Source: Streptococcus infantis (lineage in GTDB: Bacteria; Bacillota; Bacilli; Lactobacillales; Streptococcaceae). Taken from it: a stretch of DNA of 64,000 nucleotides. The stretch is from the NCBI RefSeq assembly GCF_000960085.1, contig NZ_JYGT01000004.1:1-64000 (forward strand), in the 5' to 3' direction. Under the pieces are notes generated by a model. That model ran no database searches and was not told the origin of the DNA. It saw only the letters and a program-made list of their open reading frames with translations. A program made the translations under genes and the position numbers. Shown here in pieces: positions 53,980 to 57,955 of this stretch; position 1 is the first letter of the stretch, and every line of letters begins with the position of its first letter.

Positions 53980-54013
53980 ACCTTGCTTATTTTCCAATAA
54001 GAATAAGTTAAAG

Positions 54014-54045
54014 AACCTGAGAACTATTTTGTCTCAGGTTTTTTT
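54014..54045 (+). terminator. der terminator
   Basis: AACCTGAGA pairs with TCTCAGGTT around an 11-base loop, followed by seven T. Confidence 0.9.
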
Positions 54046-54102
54046 GTTTATTTTGATTTTCAGAATAGGTTTGAAATGAAAAAGAATAGTTTTTGTTCGT
54101 TT

Positions 54103-54123
54103 AGGTACCAAAAGGTTACCAAA
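54103..54123 (+). repeat. Tandem AGGTaCCAAA repeats, possible integrase arm-site relic
   Basis: AGGTACCAAA is followed directly by AGGTTACCAAA, 58 bases past the der terminator. It has the style of tandem integrase arm sites at ends of streptococcal elements, but there is no integrase here. Confidence 0.35.
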
Positions 54124-54205
54124 GACATAATCTTCCACAAATAAATAATTTCAATATGCTAGCGTTAGGTAAAGTTTTAACATTGTTTTTCATCTTGGAA
54201 TCATG

Positions 54206-56290
54206 TTAGTAATCATTAAAAGAATAACTTTTTCTGTCAGTAGCTTTCTTTTTAATTTGTAATTTTTTAAAATCGTGTTCTTGTAAATTCCAGTTAAAGT
54301 AAGATTGATTCATCAATTCTTTAAAAATTAAATAATTGGTACAATTTCTTCCTAGTTTATTTAATTCTTCATTTTTCAAATCCTCTAAGACGTTTGTTGC
54401 AAATCGTCTTCCTATTTTTAAGTTTTGAAATTCTGGATAATAAAGAAAATCATTTAAAATATAAAAATACTTAGCATCTTCTAATAAACTATCCGTATGT
54501 GTTTGGTAATTTTTTACAAAATTCATTATCGATTTAAATAAATAATTTAAGACGACCTTATATCTACTTTCATATCCAATTATATAATAACCAATAGCGC
54601 AAAGTGTATAGTAATCTTCTGGATTTTCGTCTAGTAGTTGACATAAAAACTGCGAGCTCAACTTCTTATCAAAAAATTTCAAATATACAATTAGATCAGA
54701 AATATTATTGATTCTATTTGAGTTACTCTTCAATATCCGATAGATATTTTCAAATATCCTATTTTCAATATCTAATAAATAATTTTCACTATTTGTTATA
54801 AAGTTTTCATTATCATTGTTATTATTGATTGTTGTTCTTAATTTAGATATTGAAGCTCTGAATTCCATTAAAGTATAAATGTATGACTTTGTTGTATCAG
54901 AATCAGGATGAATTGAATAAATATTATTTATTTGATCTAAAGCAGTATTTATTCTACGAAGGTATTTGAAAAAGTTTTTACGATATGCTGTTTCTTGATT
55001 AATAAAAATTGGTTCATAAATTTCTAAAGAGATAGCATTTAAAAAGTATAGAACGACCCGCCTTTTAGAACTGGGTGTATTGCTAATTATATTCCTTGTT
55101 GTATCATATAGATGATTCCAAGTAGGTTCCTTAAGAATTATCTTGCCTATTGAAATTTTATACTCATTAGAGTGTCTATTAAGAAGTTGTTTATACTTTT
55201 CAATAGCATGAGGATTCTGTGACAATTTCAGAAGCTTTAGTTCTCTCCTGTTATTGAAACTATTAAGAAGTTGCTTTAATTGTATGATAGATGTATCAGC
55301 TAATGAGAAAGGCTGCTCCTTAATTTGATGTTTTTCAAGATTGAGTTTTAAATTGAAATTAGATAGTTCCCTAGAAATTTCATGCTCAATAATTTCTAGT
55401 ATTTCGTGAGTTGAGGAAAAGATGTAATAATCATCAATGAAGCGATAAATTTTATAATTTTTATTGAAGTATATATTTTGCTTATTTAAGTTCTTCTCAA
55501 TATTAAAATCACAGTGTGTTAGAATAATATCAGCAATTATTCTATTTATTTCTGGTCCGATTATAATACCATTAGTTTCGTTATCATTGCTTTTTTGTTG
55601 AATTATGTCAGATTGAGCAGCAAAAGTATTTTTCAATGAACGATGAGAATACTCCTTACCTAGATGTTTATCTCCAACAATTGCCCATGTGATTGAGTGT
55701 GTATATACACTTCCAAAAAAGTTTTGGATATCAAGTTTAGAAAAAAATCTATATCGTAAACTATCTCTATTAAAACTAGGAGAATTCAGAATGTTAGATA
55801 ATTTATGATGTTTATTATAGGTGAAATATTTTTTAAAGAAAGGGTCCAATTCTTCATTTGTAATAGAATTATTTCCTTCGATACCAAAATCTTGTTCTAT
55901 TTTTAACAGTTCTTTTTCTAAAGCTTTACTTTCTGAATATGTTATAGTGTTTGCTTTTTGAACTTTACGAACATTAAATTTAGACTTTTGAAGAAAGTTA
56001 ATTAATAGATATTCGTATTTCATATTATAAAGTAAAAACTTTAACTGTGAAGCAGGATGCATCAACGAAATTGTCCTATAAGCACCATTATTTTTAGGTA
56101 TTTCGTAGCGAAGAGGTATGGTATATTTCTCATTGAATTTTTTGTTAAATTTTTTATTATCAGTTGGAACTAGATTAATCAAATTTTCTAAATTATCTTT
56201 TATTGGTGAATTTGAGAAAAATGTTGGCACCTCCGAAGGGAGAACTTCTGTTGTTAAAAACCATTCTTGTTTAAGATATTGTTTATCCAT
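54206..56290 (-). CDS. drt3b: Anti-phage reverse transcriptase, Drt3b-like (UG8-type)
   Basis: 694 residues from ATG 56290 (AAGGA ten bases upstream); an ATG at 56332 is rejected because the -10 box lies within that extension. RT motifs: 'R-T-I-S-L-M-H' near residue 72, motif A SKLDIQNFF with D187, motif B NGIIIGPEINR (about 240-250), motif C FIDDYY with D286-D287, and motif D LNLEKH. All fall in the first 330 residues. The remaining 370 are helical with no nuclease, maturase or HNH motif. The size, the second RT gene and the ACACAC RNA fit Drt3b, reported to make the poly(AC) strand without a nucleic-acid template. Assignment is by context and motif, without a search. Confidence 0.82.
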   Translation of the reverse strand: MDKQYLKQEWFLTTEVLPSEVPTFFSNSPIKDNLENLINLVPTDNKKFNKKFNEKYTIPLRYEIPKNNGAYRTISLMHPASQLKFLLYNMKYEYLLINFLQKSKFNVRKVQKANTITYSESKALEKELLKIEQDFGIEGNNSITNEELDPFFKKYFTYNKHHKLSNILNSPSFNRDSLRYRFFSKLDIQNFFGSVYTHSITWAIVGDKHLGKEYSHRSLKNTFAAQSDIIQQKSNDNETNGIIIGPEINRIIADIILTHCDFNIEKNLNKQNIYFNKNYKIYRFIDDYYIFSSTHEILEIIEHEISRELSNFNLKLNLEKHQIKEQPFSLADTSIIQLKQLLNSFNNRRELKLLKLSQNPHAIEKYKQLLNRHSNEYKISIGKIILKEPTWNHLYDTTRNIISNTPSSKRRVVLYFLNAISLEIYEPIFINQETAYRKNFFKYLRRINTALDQINNIYSIHPDSDTTKSYIYTLMEFRASISKLRTTINNNNDNENFITNSENYLLDIENRIFENIYRILKSNSNRINNISDLIVYLKFFDKKLSSQFLCQLLDENPEDYYTLCAIGYYIIGYESRYKVVLNYLFKSIMNFVKNYQTHTDSLLEDAKYFYILNDFLYYPEFQNLKIGRRFATNVLEDLKNEELNKLGRNCTNYLIFKELMNQSYFNWNLQEHDFKKLQIKKKATDRKSYSFNDY

Positions 56291-56303
56291 AACTAAATTA
56301 TCC

Positions 56304-56332
56304 TTGATTTTTTGTCTCTTATATTGTACCAT
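56304..56332 (+). promoter_or_regulatory. Overlapping divergent promoters of the DRT3-like locus
   Basis: On the plus strand TTGATT (56304-56309) N17 TACCAT (56327-56332) would start RNA near 56339, exactly where the RNA fold begins. On the minus strand an extended -10, TGGTACAAT (56323-56331), would drive the leftward RT gene. The two cannot be occupied at once. Confidence 0.6.
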
Positions 56333-56339
56333 ATAAAGC

Positions 56340-56509
56340 GTAGGCTTGAGAATACTAAATATTTTAATTCTTGTTAAAACAAGTTTAAGTTCTCATACAC
56401 ACAAAAAGATTATTTCAAGTGTTACTTAAAAAGCACATAGATTTGCTAGTTATTCTGTGCTGATTATCTCGGGTGGAGCATAAATATTTGTTCCACTCAG
56501 TCTGCCTAC
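56340..56509 (+). ncRNA. DRT3-type non-coding RNA with ACACAC template candidate
   Basis: GTAGGC (56340-56345) and GCCTAC (56504-56509) close a fold of 170 nt. Inside are hairpin 1 (GAGAA...TTCTC, 56348-56394, with inner CTTGTT/AACAAG), then single-stranded ATACACACAAAAAG with ACACACA at 56397-56403, hairpin 2 AGCACA/TGTGCT (56432-56461) and hairpin 3 GGGTGGA/TCCACTC (56471-56498). Published DRT3 work, as I recall it, describes an ncRNA whose ACACAC is copied by Drt3a into poly(GT). The RNA lies 19 bases before the 410-aa RT gene. Confidence 0.75.
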
Positions 56510-56528
56510 AATTTTAGGAGTATATATT

Positions 56529-57761
56529 ATGAAATTTAACTCAATGTTTATAGAAATTAAACGAGGTGATAGACACGTTTACAAATTAAGGGATGAATCA
56601 CTACGTTGTGAATTAGAAGCTTTAAACATTGAGATTATTAATAAATTTAATCTAAGTGTTCCAAACAGGAATGCTATTATTAAATCATTGATTCAATTTT
56701 TAAGTCAAGGGAATATTTATTGTAATCAATCTGATTTAACTGCAACACCTCAGAAGTTTTATATTATAAAATCAGATATTAAAAACTTCTTTCCATCCAT
56801 CAATAAGCACAAGCTATATAAAAAAATAGTTAAATCATCTTTGTTAAAAGACTATAGTATCGAAATTATTAAAAAGTTTATTTTTAATGGTAGCATTTCA
56901 GGTATTCCTTTGGGGATGCCATTTTCTAATGCACTTTCTGAAGTATACTTAGAAGATTTTGATGATGCAATAAGGAGGGAGTTTGCTCCAATTTTTTATG
57001 TTAGATATGTAGATGACATATTAATGATAAAAAGTTATCCTAAAAATATGACTATTGATAAAGATAGTGAGAAAAATTTATTATTTAGTTTATTGAAACA
57101 AATTGATTTATCGGCTAATGAGAGTAAAACAGAGATATATGAATACACACCATCTATAGAGACTCTAAACTTTGAGTATCTTGGATATAATTTTAATATA
57201 TCCGATCAAAAGGTACATATTGACATTGCTAAAAAAAAGTATGACAAAAAAGTATTAAATAGACTTACGAGATATTTTAAATATTATAAATCTTCCTCTC
57301 ATACTGATGAAGATTTCTGGGTTCTTTATTATAGATTAAAAAATTTAATTTATGGTGTAACATCGAGCGGGGAAAAAGGTACTGATCATAAGTTAAAATT
57401 TGGAATTGGTTTTAATTATAAGTTTATTAATTCCGACCACAGATTAAAAGATTTATTGAAGGCATTTCATTATTTTAGAACTAAATATTCAAATTATTTT
57501 ACCTCGGAACAAACCGCACGCCTATTTAGTCTGATTACTGTTGATTCCGGGGTAAATGGAAGAATAATTCTTAACCAATTTTCTGACACCAATGATATTT
57601 TACTTTTACTCAAGAAGAGAATAACTTATACTAAGTATTCAACAATAAAGTTAGAAGAAATTGCACAGCAAATTGGTTGTCCATCAATTGTCAGAAGTAA
57701 CGATAGCTTGTATCGATATAATCTACAAATACAGATAATGAAAAAATTACGAATTCGTTGA
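56529..57761 (+). CDS. drt3a: Anti-phage reverse transcriptase, Drt3a-like (UG3-type)
   Basis: A 410-residue RT starting at ATG 56529 with TTAGGAG upstream. Motif A is KSDIKNFFPSI with D83, motif B GIPLGMPFSNALSE (about 125-138), motif C RYVDDILMI with D162-D163, motif D ANESKTEIYE near 196-205, and motif E FEYLGYNF. A C-terminal helical thumb region of about 180 residues follows. There is no maturase, primase or protease domain, and no retron msr-msd fold was found. The divergent 694-aa RT, the size and the preceding ACACAC RNA fit Drt3a. Confidence 0.83.
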   Translation: MKFNSMFIEIKRGDRHVYKLRDESLRCELEALNIEIINKFNLSVPNRNAIIKSLIQFLSQGNIYCNQSDLTATPQKFYIIKSDIKNFFPSINKHKLYKKIVKSSLLKDYSIEIIKKFIFNGSISGIPLGMPFSNALSEVYLEDFDDAIRREFAPIFYVRYVDDILMIKSYPKNMTIDKDSEKNLLFSLLKQIDLSANESKTEIYEYTPSIETLNFEYLGYNFNISDQKVHIDIAKKKYDKKVLNRLTRYFKYYKSSSHTDEDFWVLYYRLKNLIYGVTSSGEKGTDHKLKFGIGFNYKFINSDHRLKDLLKAFHYFRTKYSNYFTSEQTARLFSLITVDSGVNGRIILNQFSDTNDILLLLKKRITYTKYSTIKLEEIAQQIGCPSIVRSNDSLYRYNLQIQIMKKLRIR

Positions 57762-57766
57762 TTTAA

Positions 57767-57790
57767 CTGAGAGCTCAGGCTCTCTTTTTT
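57767..57790 (+). terminator. Terminator of the Drt3a-like gene
   Basis: GAGAGC-TCAG-GCTCTC followed by six T, eight bases after the stop codon. Confidence 0.92.
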
Positions 57791-57955
57791 CTTCCCCTCC
57801 CCTCTTGACTATGAAGTAGTCATTTTCCTAATTATTCCTTGTTGATCTTGGAGGTGGGATAGATGTAGATCTAAACTTGTCATCAAATTAACATGTTTTC
57901 CTGGTTCGTGTCATGGTTTTGTAATGGAAACGTACTTTCTTTGTAAGATTCAAAA

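Follow-up and report, generated by a model that had tools for sequence, protein, structure and literature searches.

DRT3 anti-phage systems pair two reverse transcriptases (RTs), Drt3a and Drt3b, which assemble with an RNA into a 6:6:6 complex, and the literature seen here describes the system of Escherichia coli. There, according to the accessible part of PMC13174585, Drt3a makes poly(dTdG) from an ACACAC sequence carried by an RNA that lies downstream of drt3b, Drt3b makes poly(dCdA) with one of its own tyrosines as the starting point, and RecBCD keeps the duplex in check until a phage inhibitor acts. The same text has E22 of Drt3b selecting dATP, R241 switching for dCTP, an active site lined by R71, D182, F187 and D278, and Y666 as the primer, and a second account, also accessible in part, names Glu26 and Arg253 for base selection (PMC13213688). 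For DRT10, a helix just 5' of the template has been proposed to set the template boundary (PMC12632851, accessible part). Around 97% of UG3 RTs adjoin a UG8 RT, as reported in the accessible part of PMC8934634, where their orientation is not stated. Here, we analyse a window from Streptococcus infantis, by which we mean the whole stretch of 64,000 nucleotides (nt), in which two RT open reading frames (ORFs) lie back to back on opposite strands within 54206-57761. We consider it likely, with a probability of roughly 0.78, that they form a Bacillota-type DRT3 anti-phage system whose predicted template RNA lies between the divergent genes, as the 5' leader of drt3a. The new part is the position of this RNA, for which the initial annotation of this DNA gave no location. 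The features on which the argument turns are the following:

54206 to 56290, minus strand: drt3b, a UG8-type RT of 694 amino acids (aa) from its likely start; the ORF is open to 56332 (708 aa)
56529 to 57761, plus strand: drt3a, a UG3-type RT of 410 aa
56340 to 56509, plus strand: predicted template RNA, 170 nt, closed by helix P1 (from fold and covariation in 4 streptococci)
56397 to 56403, plus strand: ACACACA, the predicted Drt3a template (from its gap position in divergent loci; invariant in a 4-row streptococcal alignment)

The identity of the two genes is given by their profile and sequence matches. The best PADLOC model for the minus-strand protein is Drt3b (E 4e-123, 410 bits), with Drt6 as the next family at 147 bits, and that for the plus-strand protein is Drt3a (E 2.4e-73, 246 bits), followed by UG17 at 106 bits; UG8 (Drt3b) and UG3 (Drt3a) thus come out best in the profile search that the initial annotation had proposed as a check. 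When the PDB was searched by sequence, the plus-strand protein found 9z6y_A, labelled Drt3a, as its best match, and the minus-strand protein found 26cz_A, followed by 9z6y_H, labelled Drt3b. The entry 26cz_A is labelled as a SUMO-fused RNA-directed DNA polymerase, and its residue numbering fits E. coli Drt3b. Together, the PADLOC models and the PDB matches support the streptococcal DRT3 that had been suggested from the sequence. An AbiK or retron identity was rejected on the PADLOC scores (AbiK 73 bits vs 410 for Drt3b; retron 40.5 bits vs 246 for Drt3a, the former from the sole retron model in the best 25 of 49 matches for the plus-strand protein), and no AbiA model is among the PADLOC matches listed for either protein. 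The only Pfam family above cut-off is RVT_1, for both proteins, in agreement with the earlier statement that neither has maturase, HNH, integrase or retron features. AlphaFold monomer models reach a predicted local distance difference test (pLDDT) score of 85 for Drt3b and 87 for Drt3a. The nearest solved folds are those of DRT4, DRT6, UG15, AbiP2 and AbiK (Class 1 UG RTs) for the former and of retron, DRT9 and group II RTs for the latter, with no Drt3 entry among the best 50 structure matches listed for either model in a structure library reaching to April 2026.

In order to compare gene order, 123 loci were examined. Both genes could be recognised in 107 of them, the other 16 being skipped; the removal of 5 duplicates left 102, with 18 divergent and 84 tandem. 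The divergent order, whose comparison across loci had been recommended at the outset, comes from Bacillota in all 18 loci: four are from Streptococcus, three from Enterococcus, two from Lentilactobacillus, one each from Terribacillus, Planococcus, Lysinibacillus, Sedimentibacter and Gorillibacterium, one from an uncultured Lactobacillus, and three, nearly identical, from lactobacillus and pediococcus plasmids. Going by source names, the tandem loci of the genome scan include no Bacillota among the best 80 of 415 loci that were kept; viral contigs with DRT3 loci carry no host name.

The position of the ACACAC motif was counted in both groups with one script, against a Markov expectation and with duplicates removed. 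In tandem loci, the motif lies within 300 nt downstream of drt3b in 73/82 cases (two loci that were too short were dropped), where 5.4 would be expected, while it is at background upstream of drt3a (4/84, expected 4.0) and on the opposite strand downstream (2/82, expected 4.5). In divergent loci, it is found in the gap, on the drt3a strand, in 16/18 cases, where 0.8 would be expected, and the count is still 13/15 after the removal of the near-identical L017, L112 and L116. The other strand of the gap has it in 0/18 (expected 0.4), the 300 nt downstream of drt3b in 0/17 (expected 0.7; L024 dropped), and the stretch downstream of drt3a in 1/15, namely L021 (expected 0.8; three streptococcal loci too short for this count were dropped). 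Since ACACAC is not enriched over the whole window (10 matches vs 18.8 expected), the evidence for the motif is its place and not its rarity. On these sequence counts, the motif changes place with gene order.

The predicted RNA that would present this motif consists of a closing stem and several inner hairpins, with the template directly 3' of one of the helices:

56340 to 56345, plus strand: 5' strand of P1, GUAGGC, closing the RNA element
56504 to 56509, plus strand: 3' strand of P1, GCCUAC, closing the RNA element
56347 to 56352, plus strand: 5' strand of P2, UGAGAA (streptococcal consensus fold)
56390 to 56395, plus strand: 3' strand of P2, UUCUCA, one base 5' of the template; candidate 5' template boundary, by analogy with SL5 of DRT10
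56417 to 56427, plus strand: P3 hairpin, AAGU-GUU-ACUU, drawn by eye; AAGC/GCUU in L002 and L013
56432 to 56461, plus strand: P4 hairpin, AGCACA/UGUGCU (centroid fold)
56471 to 56498, plus strand: P5 hairpin, 10 pairs, with two-sided changes

P3 is present neither in the minimum-energy fold of the window nor in the RNAalifold consensus. The stretch 56337-56512 folds at -44.5 kcal/mol (z -4.24), which none of 200 shuffles equals. Across the four streptococci, 6/26 pairs carry two-sided changes, a number reached by 10/500 shuffles, and the covariation score is reached by 2/500. A comparable layout is predicted for the gaps of Enterococcus and Sedimentibacter, which have a closing stem, an extra hairpin and a helix ending directly at the template and, 3' of it, two hairpins and then a last hairpin set against the 3' strand of the closing stem. 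A covariance model built from two Enterococcus loci and Sedimentibacter finds Lysinibacillus (E 5e-6) and Planococcus (E 0.0025), neither of them in the model, with both matches in the gap and on the drt3a strand. When these five loci are aligned, 35/56 pairs show two-sided changes vs 13.9 in shuffles, 0/500 of which are as high, in an alignment adjusted to the structure and biased in its favour. The next model, from Enterococcus and Bacillales, finds Terribacillus (E 1.4e-5), which was not used in building it. Applied to 43 of the 84 tandem loci, the same model yields nothing beyond weak matches (E 0.053 and 0.72). An Rfam search gave two matches up to E 1, both to snoRNA families and far below gathering scores, and neither a 23-base streptococcal pattern run against viral contigs nor the gap DNA run against plasmids and phages turned up extra copies.

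The residues assigned a function in E. coli are also kept. From the alignments, the window counterparts of E22, R71, D182, F187, R241, D278 and Y666 are E34, R86, D201, F206, R264, D300 and Y708, the last of which is the final residue of Drt3b and the predicted priming tyrosine. Glu26 and Arg253, in the numbering of the accessible part of PMC13213688, align with the same E34 and R264 when counted along the 9z6y_H alignment. Counterparts of E22, R71, D182, F187, R241 and D278-D279 are kept in 18/18 divergent loci, and the terminal tyrosine in 15/18. Among the 84 tandem Drt3b proteins, the E22 site holds E in 71 and D in 11, and the R241 site holds R in 84/84. The catalytic aspartates of Drt3b are D187/D286-D287 in the 694-aa numbering and D201/D300-D301 in the 708-aa numbering; a 26-row alignment shows no variation at D201 and D300 and hardly any at D301, and D83, D162 and D163 of Drt3a are invariant in a 16-row alignment. 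The second Asp of motif C is replaced by N in 6/84 tandem Drt3b proteins, and the same change is seen in protein P0072.

Quick trees of both RTs were built from all 18 divergent and 42 of the 84 tandem loci. In the Drt3b tree, with three other RTs as outgroup, one branch parts divergent from tandem proteins, with SH-like approximate likelihood ratio test (SH-aLRT) values of 91 on the divergent and 86 on the tandem side, and in the Drt3a tree one branch does so as well (SH-aLRT 98). Judged from these trees, there is one change between the two arrangements. The single branch and the different predicted position of the RNA bear out the suggestion that the divergent order marks a distinct subtype. 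The literature searched, PMC13174585 and PMC13314766 included, itself seen in part and with Mestre 2022, Gao 2020 and Deng 2026 outside that search, makes no mention of a divergent or a Streptococcus DRT3.

The arrangement of the gap is consistent with an RNA transcribed together with drt3a, and the following elements surround it:

56304 to 56332, plus strand: candidate promoter of the RNA and drt3a, TTGATT-17 nt-TACCAT (spacing fixed in 4 streptococci)
56323 to 56352, minus strand: candidate drt3b promoter, TTCTCA-18 nt-TACAAT (from a scan; ATTGTA invariant in 4 streptococci)
56515 to 56520, plus strand: drt3a ribosome-binding site TAGGAG, 5 bases after P1
57769 to 57784, plus strand: terminator-like hairpin 3' of drt3a (terminator scan; kept in 4 streptococci)

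P1 stands directly 5' of the drt3a ribosome-binding site in all four streptococci, and the terminator scan found no terminator-like site between the RNA and drt3a. The streptococcal box TTGAWT-17-TAYCAT, with constant spacing in the four species, would start transcription near 56339. We infer that the template RNA of this Bacillota variant is the 5' leader of the drt3a transcript. The second hexamers of the candidate minus and plus promoters overlap by 2 bp, and it is conceivable, as a tentative extension in which we place somewhat less than even confidence, that the divergent DRT3 of Bacillota are a separate leader-RNA subtype, whose head-to-head promoters would act as one switch for the ratio of the two enzymes and whose RNA would have been relocated while keeping its ACACAC. 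If so, the drt3a message would start with its own template RNA, which would have been transferred, in one direction or the other, between a site 3' of the operon's genes and one 5' of drt3a.

Both divergent ORFs are present as first annotated, with the catalytic aspartates then assigned to them. The drt3b length of 694 aa and the 196-bp gap that accompanied them are each real, but they do not belong together: the 196-bp gap goes with the 708-aa ORF, starting at 56332, and the 694-aa start at 56290 leaves a gap of 238 bp. Within 56323-56332, the ATG of the 708-aa ORF falls in the TACCAT hexamer of the candidate promoter for the RNA; because of this, the start at 56290, which is preceded by AAGGAT, is favoured.

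The genomic setting is that of an insertion:

54016 to 57864, no strand: inserted cassette, holding the two RT genes and the gap RNA (from comparison with empty sites)

In L125 and L126, two relatives with empty sites, the match to the window breaks off at 53980 and resumes at 57865 after 55 bases, and in a third congener, L127, it extends to 54015; from these limits, the insert would measure about 3.85-3.9 kb, with the cassette at about 54016-57864. Its G+C content is about 24-28% in 500-base windows, and that of the surrounding windows is mostly 37-46%, with one at 33%. The G+C profile and the empty sites thus confirm the A+T-rich insertion between der and a TPM-domain gene that had been noticed from the sequence. 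Full drt3 pairs are present in 4/284 Streptococcus genomes, including that of the window, and the closest named relative of Drt3a, at 94% identity, is from Streptococcus oralis. For Drt3b, a search lists 27 close relatives, the protein of the window among them, that cover 98-100% of its length at 65-100% identity. In blastn, the der and TPM flanks match the other three full-pair streptococci only over short stretches adjoining the two genes (the flanks examined measured about 4.5 and 6 kb in L013 and, in L002 and L004, about 1.5 kb beyond drt3b and some 40 bases at the opposite end), so that the insertion sites seem to differ among the four. Broken remnants of drt3b and drt3a lie in two other Streptococcus genomes (L005 in G132 and L123 in G249), suggesting that genomes not only acquire the cassette but also lose it. 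The near-identical divergent loci L111, L112 and L116 are carried by Lactiplantibacillus and Pediococcus plasmids from fermented food; L111 and L112 have IS30 transposase and recombinase genes beside them, and the proteins of all three are annotated as RNA-directed DNA polymerase and nothing more.

A number of observations weigh against the reading proposed here, many of them concerning the RNA. Its fold strength depends on the borders chosen, since a fixed 210-nt stretch brings the z of the window to -1.40, and the opposite strand folds about equally well (z of -2 or below in 10/14 loci on the drt3a strand and in 8/14 on the other). The Enterococcus and Sedimentibacter model also gives one-hairpin matches on the opposite strand at E 0.005-0.006, near the Planococcus value, and the Enterococcus and Bacillales model misses L021, L022, L024, L044 and L111. 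The streptococcal RNA is missed by every model built from other divergent loci, and its own model, run on 20 and then 7 sources, finds only the four streptococci that went into it (with a stray hit at E 0.95 among the 7); a single covariance model for all loci was rejected for this reason, as the streptococcal and the Enterococcus and Bacillales models do not find each other's RNA. Because the models fail across the two sets, position, motif and overall layout are the only links of the streptococcal RNA to the others. A boundary helix as a general rule was likewise rejected, since helices immediately preceding the template exceed the background only slightly: one of 5 pairs is present in 12/14 divergent loci vs 8.1 expected (tandem, 46/73 vs 34.0) and one of 6 pairs in 4/14 vs 3.3 (tandem, 23/73 vs 13.3). 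In the 210-nt fold and 5'-helix tests, stretches were set by gene starts taken from profile, not alignment, positions. The motif itself is absent from the gap of L021 and L024. In L024, an ACACAC lies inside drt3a and was left uncounted; L021 (Lentilactobacillus hilgardii) has ACACAA in the gap, besides its ACACAC downstream of drt3a, where one hit is also expected by chance. The terminal tyrosine is missing in L021, which ends in F, in L044, which has no residue there, and in L024, which is cut at the contig end. The plus promoter of the window has 8/12 consensus letters by eye and is absent from the scan list, and the promoter scan as a whole is at chance level (26 sites vs 27.0 in shuffles), so that neither candidate promoter counts as a sign of function. 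As to gene order, the restriction of the genome scan to its best 80 loci bears on the link between divergence and Bacillota, L044 is flagged as a long branch in both trees, and the Erysipelothrix phage SE-1 (L117, a skipped locus) carries a tandem drt3a-drt3b in a phage of a Bacillota host. In L117, the two proteins are annotated as hypothetical and as DNA-binding protein, and TGTGTG stands on the plus strand downstream of drt3b, hence ACACAC on the minus strand.

Further doubts come from the proteins themselves. Both miss their NCBIfam cut-offs (NF041747, Drt3a, 160 of 200 bits; NF041748, Drt3b, 281 of 350), as do 8/8 other divergent Drt3b proteins tested, at 267-311 bits, while 2/2 tandem ones pass at 622 bits, and the Drt3b of the window carries FIDD, where the first position is Y in all 84 tandem proteins. 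These scores below the equivalog cut-offs could mean that the two RTs are Drt3 homologues with altered products, making another repeat, or with a Drt3b that makes untemplated DNA as DRT4 does. At the Y276 site, F is found in 12/18 divergent Drt3b proteins vs 0/84 tandem ones, in which it is Y throughout, Drt3a has a shorter N terminus, aligning to its PADLOC profile only from position 82, and the gap RNA has diverged. However, the counterparts of E22 and R241 are present in every divergent locus and ACACAC in 16 of the 18; as the gating residues and the motif are kept, both halves of the predicted product would stay complementary, and we regard altered products as unlikely.

Less probable still is a DRT3 in which, as in E. 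coli, the functional RNA is encoded 3' of drt3b and the ACACAC of the gap is an incidental leader sequence. Even though the roughly 128 bp just downstream of drt3b (54078-54205, minus strand) are 77% alike in L002 and L013, above the expectation for plain spacer, they fold no better than shuffles (z -0.14), their likeness to L004 stops after about 45 bases and they have no ACACAC, in line with the 0/17 divergent loci that have it downstream of drt3b vs 16/18 in the gap. An RNA in this place was rejected since neither motif nor fold is found there, and a small ORF was rejected as its frames are not kept between species; the stretch is possibly the cassette end or a 3' regulatory stretch. Finally, the rare and patchy occurrence of the pairs, with fragments in two more genomes, would fit a leftover mobile cassette that has decayed or is silent. 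This we hold to be very improbable, since both frames are open, the catalytic and gating residues are intact, and the RNA structure and the ribosome-binding site are kept.

A functional DRT3 with its template RNA in the gap thus being preferred, a mechanism can be proposed that starts from what was observed here (the two genes and their residues, the motif in its place, a predicted RNA structure with covariation, and open reading frames for addA/rexA and rexB) and takes its remaining steps from the E. coli system. AddAB/RexAB is the Gram-positive counterpart of RecBCD. Drt3a would bind the gap RNA and copy the ACACACA loop repeatedly into poly(dTdG), with P2, just 5' of the loop, acting as the template boundary. 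Drt3b, primed by its C-terminal tyrosine, would need no nucleic-acid template for poly(dCdA), as E34 and R264 would make it alternate dATP and dCTP. The two products would then anneal into a repeat double-stranded DNA that RexAB, as we predict by analogy, restrains and keeps low. Upon the blocking of the nuclease by a phage, the repeat DNA would accumulate and the infected cell would stop growing.

In DRT3, one strand of the double-stranded DNA is copied from RNA and the other is dictated by a protein, and a distant Gram-positive clade offers an independent test of which parts of such a system are constrained: the motif and the residues appear fixed, the location of the RNA and most of its sequence do not. 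An RNA in the gap would escape a search downstream of drt3b, and the existence of such a clade would explain why its proteins on plasmids bear a plain polymerase label at NCBI. The locus also raises the question of whether RexAB stands in the place of RecBCD as the guarded nuclease.

The nearest folds to the Drt3b model belong to systems of a different composition. UG15, AbiP2 and AbiK are described as single-RT systems. DRT4 and DRT6 are described as such too in the accessible part of PMC13213688, and all five have sequence scores far below those of the Drt3b models. With DRT10, this locus would share a template RNA whose loop immediately follows a helix and which is placed upstream of an operon gene, but DRT10 has a single RT, a 9-nt repeat and a SLATT protein, and no Drt3b partner (PMC12632851, accessible part). 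The closest system is the DRT3 of E. coli, with which it has in common the Drt3a and Drt3b family RTs, ACACAC, the gating E22 and R241, the priming tyrosine and the catalytic aspartates (PMC13174585, accessible part). Nonetheless, the genes are tandem in E. coli and divergent here, the RNA lies downstream of drt3b there and is predicted between the genes, upstream of drt3a, in the window, the N terminus of Drt3a is shorter than that of its E. coli counterpart, and Drt3b has FIDD in place of the YVDD of E. coli.

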